From Saccharopolyspora elongata (lineage in GTDB: Bacteria; Actinomycetota; Actinomycetes; Mycobacteriales; Pseudonocardiaceae): 64,000 bases of DNA. Below the pieces are notes generated by a model, which saw only the letters and a list, made by a program, of their open reading frames with translations, was not told the DNA's origin and searched no databases. The position numbers and the translations under genes were made by a program. Below are positions 2,920 through 48,025 of the stretch, one piece after another; position 1 is the stretch's first letter, and each line of letters opens with the position of its first letter. The stretch spans positions 124,001 to 188,000 of the forward strand of contig NZ_SMKW01000006.1 in NCBI RefSeq assembly GCF_004348985.1. The letters run 5' to 3'.

Positions 2920-3731
2920 CTGACGCCCCGATCGGGATCTTCGACTCCGGCCTCGGTGGGCTGACCGTGACCCGCGCGGTCATGGACCAGTTGCCGGCCG
3001 AAACGGTGCACTACGTCGGCGACACAGCCAACGCCCCGTACGGCCCGATGCCGCTGGCCGAGATCCGCGCCCGCACCCTCGCGATCACCGACTCGCTGGT
3101 CGACGAGGGCGTGAAGATGCTGGTGATCGCCTGCAACACCGCGTCGGCGGCCTGCCTGCGCGACGCCCGGGAGCGGTACGACATCCCGGTGGTCGAGGTG
3201 GTCCTGCCCGCGGTGCGGCGGGCGGTGGCGACGACCCGCAACGGCCGCGTCGGCGTGATCGGCACCAAGGCCACCATCCACTCCCGCGCCTACGACGACG
3301 CGTTCACCGCCGCCCGGGACATCACGCTCACCACGGTCGCGTGCCCGCGCTTCGTGGAGTTCGTCGAGCGCGGCATCACCAGCGGCAGGCAGATCCTCGG
3401 CCTGGCGCAGAGCTACCTGGATCCGCTGCAGCAGGCCGACGTCGACACCCTGGTGCTCGGCTGCACGCACTACCCGATGCTCACCGGTGTGCTGCAGCTC
3501 GCGATGGGCGACCACGTGACGCTGGTCTCCAGCGCGGAGGAGACGGCCAAGGACGTGCTGCGGGCGCTCACCGAGAACGACCTGCTCGCCGACCCGGAGA
3601 CAGTGCCCGAGCACGAGTTCCGCGCCACCGGCGCGCCGGACCGATTCGCCCGGTTGGCGGCTCGCTTCCTGGGTCCGGCCGTGGTGGCCGATGCCGTTCG
3701 GCCGCTGACCGTGTCAAGCTCCATCGCATGA
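2916..3731 (+). CDS. murI: Glutamate racemase
   Basis: 271-residue glutamate racemase making D-glutamate for peptidoglycan in the cytoplasm. The two catalytic cysteines are in IACNTAS (Cys 73) and LGCTHYP (Cys 183), and the N-terminus [13 protein letters not shown] is diagnostic. It starts at GTG 2916, sharing bases with the rhomboid stop, and its stop overlaps the next start (ATGA), which indicates translational coupling across three genes. Length and motifs are normal for the family. Confidence 0.97.
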
Positions 3732-4546: not shown

Positions 4547-4999
4547 GTGGACGACCACCTCGAGCTCCGGCGTGCCGGTGATGCCGATGCGCTCGACATG
4601 GCCAACGTGTGGCTGCGTTCCTTCGCCACCGCGCTGCCGACCGTGCACCGCGCGCATGGGGATGACGAGGTGCGGAGCTGGTTCTCGCATGTCGTCGTGC
4701 CGCAGCACGAATGCTGGGTGGCTGTCGCCGCGGGCTCGGTGGTCGGGCTCCTGGTGTTGGACGGCGCGGAGCTGGACCAGCTCTACCTCGAACCGTCGTG
4801 GCGAGGCCGTGGTCTGGGCGACCGGTTCGCGGACCTGGCCAAGCGGCGGCGTCCCGGGGGACTGGATCTGTGGACGTTCCAGGTCAACGCCCCGGCGCAG
4901 CGGTTCTACGAGCGGCACGGCTTCGTCGAGGTCGAGCGGACCGACGGGCGGCGCAACGAAGAACGAGAACCGGACATCCGATATGCCTGGCGACCGTAG
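4547..4999 (+). CDS. GNAT family N-acetyltransferase
   Basis: 150-residue acetyltransferase. [24 protein letters not shown] is the acetyl-CoA-binding motif A, and the downstream [19 protein letters not shown] block is motif B, both typical of small GNAT enzymes. The GTG start at 4547 follows the MBL gene by 48 bases. The acceptor substrate is unknown. It sits between the MBL gene and rph, which are adjacent in mycobacteria, so it is probably a lineage-specific insertion. Confidence 0.85.
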
Positions 5000-43930: not shown

Positions 43931-44413
43931 GTGCCGACCGACAAGACACTGAGCCTTGCCGAGGCGATAACCCGGCACGTCCGCGACGGGCAGACGGTGG
44001 CGTTGGAGGGCTTCGGCCACCTGGTCCCGGCCGCCGCCGCGCACGAGATCATCCGGCAGGGCGTCACCGGCCTGACCCTGGCGCGGATGACCGGCGACAC
44101 GCTCGTGGACCAGCTGCTGGCGGCCGGGTGCGTGACCAAGCTGATCTCGTCGTTCGTCGGCAACAGTTCCGCCGGGTCGCTGCACGAGCTGCGGCGGCGC
44201 ATCGAGCACCACGATCCGGAGCCGCTGGAGTTCGAGGAGTACAGCCACGGCGGCATGGTCGCCCGCTACGCCGCCGGCGCCGCCAAGCTGCCGTTCGCGC
44301 CGATCCGCTCCTACACCGGCAGCGACCTCGTCGCGCTGAACCCGCAGATCAAGAGCGTCACCGATCCCTACGGCGGCGGCGAGATCCACGTGGTGCCCGC
44401 GCGTCGGTGCTAG
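43931..44413 (+). pseudogene. CoA-transferase subunit A, truncated by a TnpB element
   Basis: 5' fragment of a family I CoA-transferase alpha subunit (CtfA/PcaI/GctA-like). It keeps TLSLAEAITRHVRDGQTVALEGFGHLVPAAAAHEIIRQG and runs to DPYGGGEIHVVPA, where relatives continue with about 100 more residues. It then meets foreign sequence and stops at 44413 (160 residues). The catalytic glutamate is normally on the beta subunit, which is missing here. GTG 43931 is used as the start. The fragment is presumably non-functional. Confidence 0.8.
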
Positions 44414-44547
44414 AACTACCGATGCTCGATACGAGCTCGCACAGGATTTCGAGTTGAGGGTGTTTCGTCTTTCAGGGGCTATTGGCTTGCGCGTCCCTGT
44501 CAGCCTTGATCGGTAACCTGCCCACAGTGAAGGTGAGGTGATCAACG

Positions 44548-45768
44548 CTGCAGCTGCGTTACCGGTACCGGCTCTACCCTGCCCCAGGGCAAATGCAGGC
44601 TCTTGCCCAATCGTTCGGGTGCGCGCGCGTGGTCTACAACGACGCTGTGGCAGCGCGTCGTGCCGCGTGGTTGGCGGGTGAGGAGTACCCGACATCGGGG
44701 GCACTGCAGAAGCGGTTGATTACCGAAGCAAAACGCACTCCCGAGCGGGCGTGGCTGGCGAACGTGCAGCATTCGATGCTGCAGCAGGCCGTTCGGGACT
44801 GCGATATGGCCTACAAGAACTTCTTCGATTCGCTCGCAGGCAGGCGAGTGGGCCGGAGGATGGGTGTGCCTCGGTTTAAGTCGCGACGCGACAAGAGGCA
44901 GACGATCCGATTCCAGGCCAACGGGTTCCGAATACTGGACAATGGCAGGTTGCGGTTGGGGAAGATCGGTGACATCAAGGTTGCTTGGTCACGGAACCTG
45001 CCCAGCGTCCCGAAGACCGTCACGGTGATCAAAACCGCTGATGACCGCTATTTCGCGTCGTTCGTGGTCGAGGTCGGTGACGAAACCGCCGATCCTGTGC
45101 TCGACGAATGCGGAAACGAGATCGAGGCTGGCCTCGACCTGGGCTTGTCTGTGTTCGCCGTCGACGATCAGGGACGGCGGATCGAGAACCCGAGGTTCCT
45201 GCGGCAGGCGGAGAGAAAGCTCAAACGCGCACAACGGCAAATGTCGCGTAAGCAGAAAGGCAGCAATAACCGCGCCAAGGCCAGGCAGCGCCTGGCCAGG
45301 CAGCACGCCAAGGTAGCCGATGCTCGGTCGGACTGGCTGCACCAGGAAACGACCAGGCTCGTTCGTGAGAACCAAGCGATCTACCTGGAAGACTTGGCTG
45401 TGTCCGGTTTGGCCCGTACCCGGTTGGCCGGGAGCGTGCACGACGCATCGTGGGGCAGCTTCCGCAAGCTGCTGGAAGAGAAATGCGCCCGCGCCGGCCG
45501 AGCGCTGGTAGTGGTCGACCGGTGGTTCCCTAGTACGAAGACTTGCTCTGCCTGCGGACACGCGAAGGGTGCTATGCCGCTAGACGAGCGGGTGTTCCGG
45601 TGCGAGAAGTGCCCGCTTGTGTTGGACCGTGACGTGAACGCAGCTTGTAACATCCTCGCCGCTGGACGGGCGGAGAGGTTAAACGCCTGTGGACCCGATG
45701 TAAGACCCCCTACCGGGGCGGTTGGGGTTGAAGCAGGAACCCAGCGAAGCGCCGCTAAAGCGCAGTAG
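44548..45768 (+). CDS. tnpB: TnpB RNA-guided nuclease (IS1341/OrfB type)
   Basis: 406-residue TnpB if translation begins at CTG 44548 (reading LQLRYRYRLYPAPGQ, the canonical family N-terminus); the first ATG, at 44593, would remove 15 conserved residues. RuvC catalytic residues are present: Asp 197 in AGLDLGLSVFAVD, Glu 281 in IYLEDLAVSGL and Asp 362 in DRDVNAACNI. The zinc ribbon CSACGH...CEKC has all four cysteines (333, 336, 352, 355). The protein looks intact. TnpB enzymes cut DNA guided by an RNA from the element right end. Confidence 0.92.
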   Translation: MQLRYRYRLYPAPGQMQALAQSFGCARVVYNDAVAARRAAWLAGEEYPTSGALQKRLITEAKRTPERAWLANVQHSMLQQAVRDCDMAYKNFFDSLAGRRVGRRMGVPRFKSRRDKRQTIRFQANGFRILDNGRLRLGKIGDIKVAWSRNLPSVPKTVTVIKTADDRYFASFVVEVGDETADPVLDECGNEIEAGLDLGLSVFAVDDQGRRIENPRFLRQAERKLKRAQRQMSRKQKGSNNRAKARQRLARQHAKVADARSDWLHQETTRLVRENQAIYLEDLAVSGLARTRLAGSVHDASWGSFRKLLEEKCARAGRALVVVDRWFPSTKTCSACGHAKGAMPLDERVFRCEKCPLVLDRDVNAACNILAAGRAERLNACGPDVRPPTGAVGVEAGTQRSAAKAQ

Positions 45769-45800
45769 AATCTCCGGCCTTCAGCCGGGGAGGACGTCAA
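45690..45800 (+). ncRNA. Putative omega-RNA scaffold at the element right end
   Basis: In TnpB elements the guide scaffold overlaps the tnpB 3' end and extends to the right border. Here GCGC-N7-GCGC (45749-45763) and the terminal hairpin 45772-45792 could form it. The guide would then be the flank beginning AAGGTCCTGAAGTCC, which is lysR sequence. The 5' boundary is a guess. Confidence 0.4.
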
Positions 45801-46481
45801 AAGGTCCTGAAGTCCGTCGAGGAGGCGGCCGCGGTGGCGGCGTCGGCGGCGCACGGCGAGATCGGGACGGTGCGCATCGGCGTCGGCGGCGTCGGGCCGC
45901 TGGCGTGCCTGCCGGGCCTGGTGAAGCGGCTCAACGCGGAGAAGCCAGGGATCGAGCTGGTCGTCGTCGGCCAGGTGTACTCGCAGGCGGGGTTCGACTT
46001 GGTCGCCGACGGCAGCCTCGACCTCGCCTTCGTCCGGCTGCCCGCGGTCCGCGAAGGCGTTTCGACGCGGGTGGTGTTCGACGAACAGCTGATCCTGGCG
46101 GTGGCGCCCGACCACCCGTTGGCCGGGGCCGAGTCCGTGGCGCTCGCCGAGCTGGCCGAGGAGCGGTTCATCGCCTACCCGCCCGGCGGCGTGTCCAGCC
46201 TCCGCGACCTGATGGTGCACGCCTGCGTGGACGCCGGTTTCACGCCCCGGATCGTCCAGTACGGACCCGAGACGAGCACCATCATGGCGATGGTCGCCGC
46301 CGGGCTCGGGGTGACGCTGACCGTCACCTCGGTGATCGACGTGATCAGCAACGTCGTCTTCGTGCCGCTGGCCGGCCGGCCGTACCGGACGCAGGAGGCC
46401 ATCGCGTGGAGCCAGGAGCATCTCTCCCCGGCGGCAGCGGCGGTGCTGCGGATCGCCGAGGAGGTGCTCCCGACCCCGTGA
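45801..46481 (+). pseudogene. LysR-type regulator, 5' end missing
   Basis: 3' fragment of a LysR-family gene. It begins at the element border in linker sequence (VLKSVEEAAAVAASAAHGEIGTVRIGVGG) and retains the whole substrate-binding domain to the stop at 46481, about 226 residues. The N-terminal helix-turn-helix of about 65 residues and any start codon are absent. A GTG at 45834 could start a domain-only protein, but without DNA binding. It probably once controlled the promoters at 43825 and 46494. Confidence 0.82.
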
Positions 46482-46493
46482 ACGCCCGGAATT

Positions 46494-46534
46494 GATGCCG
46501 GCGGTGTATCAGTCCGCGACAAATCTTGTATTGG
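46494..46534 (+). promoter_or_regulatory. LysR-type operator upstream of the MHS transporter
   Basis: TTGATGCCGG and GTATTGG recur here with exactly the same spacing as upstream of the CoA-transferase fragment. The dyad GATGCC-N5-TGTATC (46494-46510) is weaker than the left copy. It starts 10 bases after the lysR fragment stop. Confidence 0.65.
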
Positions 46535-46663: not shown

Positions 46664-48025
46664 TTGAGCACCGTGATTCCCCCGGCCGCGTCGCGCGCGG
46701 ACGGCGACGAGCTCATCGTCCCGCCGGCCGATCTGCGCCGCGCGGCCGTGTCCTCGTGGCTCGGTTCCGCCTTGGAGTACATGGACTTCACCCTGTACAC
46801 CCTGGCGGCGGCGTTGGTGTTCGGCCCGCTGTTCTTCCCCGAGCAGTCCCCGGCGGTGGCGCTGATCGCGAGCTTCGGCGTCTACGGCTCGGGCTTCCTG
46901 ATCCGCCCGGTGGGCAGGCTGTTCTTCGGCCGGGTCGGTGACCGGCACGGGCGCAAGGTCGTGCTCATCGCCACGCTGGCGATGATGGGCCTGGCCACCG
47001 CCGGAATCGGTCTGCTGCCGACCTACGCGCAGATCGGCGTCTGGGCGCCGCTGCTGCTGACCGTGCTGCGCCTGGTCCAGGGCTTCGGCGCGGGCGCGGA
47101 GCTCGCCGGCGCGTCGCTGCTGATGGTCGAGTCCGCCCCGAAGCACAAGCGCGGTTTCTTCGGCTCGGTCGTCGCGATGGGCACCAACTCCGGCATCTTC
47201 CTGGCGACGGTGCTGTGGTTGTCGCTGTCGCAGATGCCCAAGGAGCAGTTCATGAGCTGGGGCTGGCGGGTGCCGTTCCTGCTGAGCCTGGTCACCACGT
47301 TCGTCGCGCTGTACCTGCGGACGTCGGTGAAGGAATCGCCGGTGTTCGAGGAACTGCGCCGCCGCCGCGAGGCGCAGAAGCACGAGGCCAAGCACGGCGG
47401 CGTGTGGCGGGACGTCGCGAAGGCGAAGAAGCCGTTCCTGCTGTCGCTGGCCATCCGGGTCTCCGAGAACGGCGCGGTCTACCTGGTCAAGGGCTTCCTG
47501 GTCGGCTACACGGCCTCGACGCTCGGCCTCGCGGGCAGCGTCGCGACGACCGGAGTGATGATCGGGACGGTGATCGGTTTCGCGACGGTGCCGCTGTTCG
47601 GCAAGCTCAGCGACCGGTACGGCCGGCGGCCGGTCTTCCTGGCGTTCGCGGTGTTCCAGCTGCTGTTCGCGGTGCCGGCGCTGGCGCTGATCCACACGGA
47701 GAACCCGGTGATCATCGCGATCGTGTTCGCGGTCTTCGTTGGCGGGCCGCTGCCGAACCTCTACGGCGTGGAGTCCCCTTGGCTGGTCGAGATGTTCGGC
47801 GCCAAGCACCGCTACACGTTCATGTCGACGGTCAAGGAGGTCGGCGCCGTCCTGTCGGGCGGCCTGGCCCCGATCCTCACCGCCGGGGTGATGGCGGCGG
47901 CGGGCCCGGCGTGGTGGCCGATCGCGGTGATCATGCTCGCCTACGCGGCGATCGGCGTCCTCGGAGCCTGGCTGGCCCCGGAGACGAAGGACCGCGACCT
48001 GTCGGCGGAAGCCGACGCCTGCTGA
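46664..48025 (+). CDS. MFS transporter, metabolite:H+ symporter (MHS) family
   Basis: 453-residue 12-segment transporter. Family signatures are SWLGSALEYMDFTLYTLAAALVF, IRPVGRLFFGRVGDRHGRKVVL, RLVQGFGAGAELAGA and GKLSDRYGRRPVF. MHS members carry organic acids such as shikimate, ketoglutarate, dicarboxylates or aromatic acids. A TTG start at 46664, 8 bases after GGAGGAG, is preferred; GTG 46673 is an alternative. The gene appears intact and probably imported the substrate of the disrupted CoA-transferase pathway. Confidence 0.9.
   Translation: MSTVIPPAASRADGDELIVPPADLRRAAVSSWLGSALEYMDFTLYTLAAALVFGPLFFPEQSPAVALIASFGVYGSGFLIRPVGRLFFGRVGDRHGRKVVLIATLAMMGLATAGIGLLPTYAQIGVWAPLLLTVLRLVQGFGAGAELAGASLLMVESAPKHKRGFFGSVVAMGTNSGIFLATVLWLSLSQMPKEQFMSWGWRVPFLLSLVTTFVALYLRTSVKESPVFEELRRRREAQKHEAKHGGVWRDVAKAKKPFLLSLAIRVSENGAVYLVKGFLVGYTASTLGLAGSVATTGVMIGTVIGFATVPLFGKLSDRYGRRPVFLAFAVFQLLFAVPALALIHTENPVIIAIVFAVFVGGPLPNLYGVESPWLVEMFGAKHRYTFMSTVKEVGAVLSGGLAPILTAGVMAAAGPAWWPIAVIMLAYAAIGVLGAWLAPETKDRDLSAEADAC

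Follow-up and report, generated by a model that had tools for sequence, protein, structure and literature searches.

The locus and its sister counterpart

We analysed a 64,000-nt window of Saccharopolyspora elongata (contig C228 of genome G000, a 10.3-Mb draft of 277 contigs with an assembly completeness of 98.7%), with w denoting positions in this window. Within it, a TnpB-encoding element is flanked on the left by the 5′ part of a CoA-transferase alpha subunit gene (ctfA) and on the right by the 3′ part of a lysR gene, and an intact transporter gene follows downstream:

43931..44402, + strand: ctfA remnant, first 157 codons of the CoA-transferase alpha subunit
44399..44402, no strand assigned: junction 1, GCGC microhomology
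44403..44442, + strand: remnant of the ctfB-lysR spacer, 40 bp, ending in CTCGCAC
44436..44442, + strand: junction 2, CTCGCAC adjoining the element
44443..45800, + strand: TnpB-only element of IS200/IS605 type (IS1341-like), 1,358 bp, its right end placed exactly and its left end within a few bases
44473..44499, + strand: possible left-end hairpin, CAGGG...CCCTG, from the minimum-energy fold
44548..45768, + strand: tnpB, 406 codons from a CTG start
45765..45800, + strand: right end of the element, consisting of GAATC, a hairpin and GACGTCAA
45801..45820, + strand: native lysR sequence starting with codon 70, presumed to correspond to guide and target
45801..46481, + strand: lysR remnant from sister codon 70, effector-binding domain only
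46664..48025, + strand: intact MFS metabolite/H+ symporter gene of the same cluster

The ctfA remnant matches PF01144 (E 7.9e-18) and is 97% identical to the longer ctfA of a sister species, and its frame runs on to a TAG within the spacer sequence, for 160 codons in total. The lysR remnant retains PF03466 (E 3.6e-42) and 97% identity to the sister LysR. The transporter carries MFS_1 and Sugar_tr matches, with its ORF listed by the ORF tool from a TTG at 46526; the sister copy matches TIGR00883 at E 2.5e-114, a score under the curated cut-off, and the NCBIfam scores of the CoA-transferase subunits likewise lie under theirs.

The sister species, from the same genus (G008, locus L019 on contig C127), aligns with w41001-48030, with interruptions, at about 97% identity over the ctfA remnant and the lysR-transporter segment. 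Its element-free cluster holds ctfA, ctfB, lysR and the MFS gene, all intact and on one strand (306, 255 and 295 codons for the first three), with the ctfB start codon and the ctfA stop codon sharing bases in ATGA. Domain matches and this alignment confirm the first-pass annotation, which had placed TnpB between the 5′ part of ctfA and the 3′ part of lysR. The comparison with a relative that it proposed turned up the intact ctfA-ctfB-lysR-MFS order without the element, showing that the DNA it supposed lost, including the remainder of ctfA, the helix-turn-helix part of lysR and ctfB, whose loss it had called probable, is indeed gone. At E <= 1e-60, this lysR has homologs in 2 of the 22 genus genomes, namely the window genome and the sister with its intact copy; naturally short, adjacent ctfA and lysR genes without the element were not found among them. 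In a wider family sample, 22 of 386 genomes gave lysR matches at E <= 1e-55, and those listed besides the window copy and the sister are 48-50% identical. Contig C11 of the window genome carries another lysR/ctfA pair in a divergent gene order that is seen in many genus genomes.

Comparison of the window with the sister gave dN/dS values of 0.012/0.078 for the ctfA remnant, 0.016/0.110 for the lysR remnant and 0.012/0.059 for the transporter (4, 7 and 11 amino-acid changes). Because the ratio is about 0.15 in both remnants and 0.20 in the intact transporter, most of the divergence seems older than the inactivation, subject to these small counts, and the ratios, drawn from few changes, suggest that ctfA and lysR were inactivated recently.

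Two losses separated by native sequence

Relative to the sister, 1,263 bp comprising the 3′ part of ctfA, the whole of ctfB and part of the spacer are gone. The joint falls on GCGC, which occurs at both sister breakpoints (rc 3517-3520 and 4780-4783). Beyond it stand 40 bp derived from the sequence just before the lysR start in the sister (rc 4784-4823); 36 of the 40 positions are identical, a match equalled by 0 of 200 shuffles, and the divergence of 4/40 exceeds the 3-4% of the adjacent remnants, on few sites.

A further 220 bp are missing between this spacer remnant and lysR codon 70; they held the last part of the spacer and lysR from its start through codon 69. The pentamer CGCAC is found at both breakpoints: the sister reads CTCGCAC/CAGG in the spacer and GCGCAC/AAGG in lysR, with GCGCAC directly before codon 70. 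One of the two copies is the sequence expected immediately to the left of the insertion. CGCAC is frequent: the sister locus contains it 22 times in 8,001 bases, and besides the two breakpoint copies a third lies within the lost 220 bp. Of the 1,483 bp lost, 220 bp contact the element. One simple deletion is rejected, because 40 bp of native spacer separate the GCGC scar from the element.

The TnpB element

The element is a TnpB-only, IS1341-type member of the IS200/IS605 family. Its first 33 nt are unlike the native continuation of the sister sequence (a similarity equalled by 1,382 of 2,000 shuffles), and the left end as a whole, which includes the possible hairpin, folds no more stably than shuffled sequence (z -0.43). 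At the right end the hairpin reaches z -2.45, and the pattern is common to homologs: 16 of 20 homolog rows have a hairpin followed by GTCAA and 4 lack it, where the pattern itself was picked from the homolog comparison and one locus is counted doubly as L010 and L021, and probably another as L024 and L029. This end is presumed to be the 3′ end of the guide-RNA scaffold, and the 20 nt that follow it, by analogy with ISDra2, to correspond to guide and target. From codon 70 onward, the window reads AAG GTC CTG AAG (K V L K) and the sister AAG GTG ATG AAG (K V M K); since lysR thus resumes at codon 70, differing from the sister by a silent and a conservative substitution, the position of the right junction is exact. 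No target duplication was seen, in a locus whose left flank the 220-bp loss has altered. An Rfam scan of w43600-46700 gave no match at gathering score, and two lower matches were taken as chance. One copy of the element was found in the genome, in addition to a 36-base match to another TnpB.

The protein matches NF040570 (guided_TnpB) at E 5.7e-100, above the cut-off, and contains OrfB_IS605, Cas12f1-like_TNB and HTH_OrfB_IS605 domains; scores for NF038281 (IS200_TnpB) and NF038280 (IS607_TnpB) are both under cut-off. Numbered from the CTG at 44548, the RuvC residues D197, E281 and D362 are kept and align with those of ISDra2 TnpB, as are the zinc-ribbon cysteines C333, C336, C352 and C355 (CxxC...CxxC), so that the catalytic triad and four zinc ligands named in the first-pass annotation are present as claimed. 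Among solved structures matched by sequence, an AI-designed nuclease (9yyg) ranked best, followed by natural ISDra2 TnpB (8bf8; chain A, E 1.4e-61, query 5-394), for which mutation of D191 is reported to have blocked cleavage (PMC8612924). Two features had been missed in that annotation, the 40-bp spacer remnant and the CTG start of tnpB. The next in-frame ATG lies at 44593 (codon 16), and every one of the 15 homolog rows that reach the first residue starts with ATG or GTG, the other 5 of the 20 falling short of it. TnpB may be expressed at a low level.

The element has no room for a tnpA gene, with 105 bp between its left end and the tnpB CTG; a tnpA-like signature lies upstream in homologs L026, L029 and L030. 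Elsewhere in the window genome, the Y1 transposase domain PF01797 gave 4 match rows in 3 places, one copy being split over two frames and two carrying in-frame stops. Because all of these copies are broken, no transposase able to move the element was found in this assembly. With no tnpA of its own, no intact Y1 transposase found in the genome and CTG as the start of tnpB, the element now appears stranded. At one of the three places (L069, 454-975), the Y1 domain split over two frames lies beside what by eye is an opposite-strand TnpB-like start; this is a further IS200/IS605 copy undergoing decay in the window genome.

Homologous elements and the target motif

Searches for closer relatives of the element, with the window itself set aside, gave none in 21 genus genomes at E <= 1e-30; relatives are carried by 9 of 389 family genomes (1e-60) and by 5 of 396 order genomes (1e-100), the best at 72% nucleotide identity, and at these cut-offs the searched genomes held no element more than 80% identical. 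Plasmid relatives of TnpB numbered 24 records at 1e-100, the best at 61% protein identity among the 10 of 24 listed, and the one plasmid neighbourhood that was inspected added nothing. Five named loci carry a related TnpB, and among them those of Halosaccharopolyspora (70% protein identity) and Actinopolyspora (71%) come nearest. At L027 (contig C7 of G107), the tnpB match of a homologous element begins at residue 42 and neither a start nor a left end could be recognised; this element, too, may have lost sequence on its left side.

The closest homolog, L009, from a genome of the same family (G033), is 72% identical in nucleotide sequence and measures 1,356 bp between comparable ends, against 1,358 bp here. 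It is a precise insertion in a DUF2332 gene, with flanks that end in CTCAC and start with AGCAACGG; joined, they form one frame that matches PF10094 (E 2.6e-81, best stretch 3-203) across the site. L009 thus resembles the window element in length, in its right end and in a left flank ending in CAC; unlike it, L009 is clean, with no flanking loss, a different host gene and an ATG start. Of 20 loci scanned for left ends, 9 gave sites, which were convincing solely in L009, L036 and L037. In the last two, TTGAC precedes similar left ends (continuity of the L036 host gene was assessed by eye), which argues that the motif differs between branches and that CGCAC is not family-wide. With one close homolog (L009, CTCAC) as its support, CGCAC may be the target-adjacent motif of the window element.

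The parallels with ISDra2 extend to TnpB architecture, the RuvC triad, the zinc ribbon, a right-end hairpin and, probably, insertion 3′ of a short motif. For ISDra2 that motif is given as TTGAT (PMC8612924), compared with the candidates CGCAC and CTCAC for the window element and L009, and is described as both receiving the insertion and licensing TnpB cleavage (PMC8612924, PMC2806898). Unlike ISDra2, the window element lacks tnpA, starts tnpB with CTG and has lost 220 bp at its left end.

Origin of the arrangement

The explanation that we consider probable combines a TnpB-only insertion at lysR codon 70, a repeat-mediated deletion to the left of this insertion and a separate 1,263-bp deletion, all within a decaying gene cluster. 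A second CoA-transferase cluster (ctfA-ctfB-lysR-transporter) would be undergoing loss in this lineage. The element would have inserted in lysR before codon 70, 3′ of CGCAC as the target-adjacent motif, leaving its right-end GTCAA directly against native AAGGTC. A 220-bp deletion from the lysR CGCAC to the spacer CGCAC would then have taken the lysR start and DNA-binding part, so that the left end of the element would come to adjoin the spacer CGCAC. Separately, the 1,263-bp deletion across the 4-bp GCGC repeat would account for the missing ctfA end and the complete absence of ctfB. With a single strain to go by, the sequence of events and the repeat-mediated process are both inferred, and the two deletions, lying 40 bp apart, may be non-independent.

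Short-repeat (microhomology) deletions occur in decaying genes, and the window likewise has 4-bp and 5-bp repeats at its two breakpoint pairs; unlike in ordinary microhomology deletions, one breakpoint here coincides with the edge of a mobile element. That coincidence would fit a motif-to-motif replacement, in which the transposase, in one event on single-stranded DNA, couples the left end with the CGCAC of the spacer and the right end with the sequence 3′ of the lysR CGCAC, replacing the 220 bp that lay between, since both 220-bp breakpoints then fall at element ends and at the same pentamer. A normal insertion preceded or followed by a repeat-mediated deletion yields an identical product, however, the motif is thinly supported, and the part of the literature consulted describes no such event, which leaves this replacement improbable. 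The general form of the idea, that IS200/IS605-type insertion can replace the DNA between two copies of a target motif and thereby produce left-flank deletions as a transposition by-product, we regard as slightly more doubtful still. If true, it would be a simple IS200/IS605 route to flanking deletions, and the present case is compatible with it and with repeat-mediated deletion alike. The order could also be reversed, with the 220-bp deletion occurring first and the element entering the single CGCAC left at the joint: the final sequence is the same and the element ends are compatible; against it, the insertion would have to hit an existing joint exactly, a hit made likelier by the motif that remained there. 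This variant, unlikely yet with an appreciable chance, differs from our preferred explanation in order alone, so that the likelihoods assigned to the two overlap and those given here do not sum to certainty.

The first-pass annotation had read the locus as an insertion-linked deletion, and its finding of loss stands. Its single event, which would have removed everything from ctfA to lysR, draws on both losses lying on one side of the element and within one cluster; against it, the 40 bp of native spacer and the separate GCGC scar intervene, so that only the 220 bp adjoin the element and a complex event such as template switching would be needed. We give this account a small chance. An assembly chimera at a mobile element would be conceivable in a draft of 277 contigs, yet both flanks follow the sister gene order, one copy of the element was found in the genome and the junctions lie inside a 201-kb contig, making an artefact very improbable indeed. 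Under the preferred combination of insertion and two deletions, the locus represents ordinary gene decay around an element of known kind. The case separates the insertion of an element from the losses that flank it: the sister locus reveals a pair of scars, although from the window by itself a single one would be supposed.

Observations upstream of the cluster

A near-perfect palindrome about 46 bp long, lying upstream of ctfA at w43643-43692 (fold z -3.76), is a dispersed repeat with at least 58 match rows in the window genome and at least 62 in the sister, both strands counted. The sister carries a gene for a TetR-like regulator between the HxlR gene and ctfA; in its place the window has about 200 bp (w43616-43817), which include the palindrome and a stretch of 29 bp that matches the sister, and this difference is the third event of gain or loss in the cluster. 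About 370 bp of the stretch holding a RibD_C-domain gene (w42422-43102) are without counterpart in the sister locus. Between the HxlR gene and ctfA, a short open stretch at w43721-43813 (LARPVWVQVKQPSTEVARAGEVLASLSITP) looks, by eye, like the tail of a lost gene.
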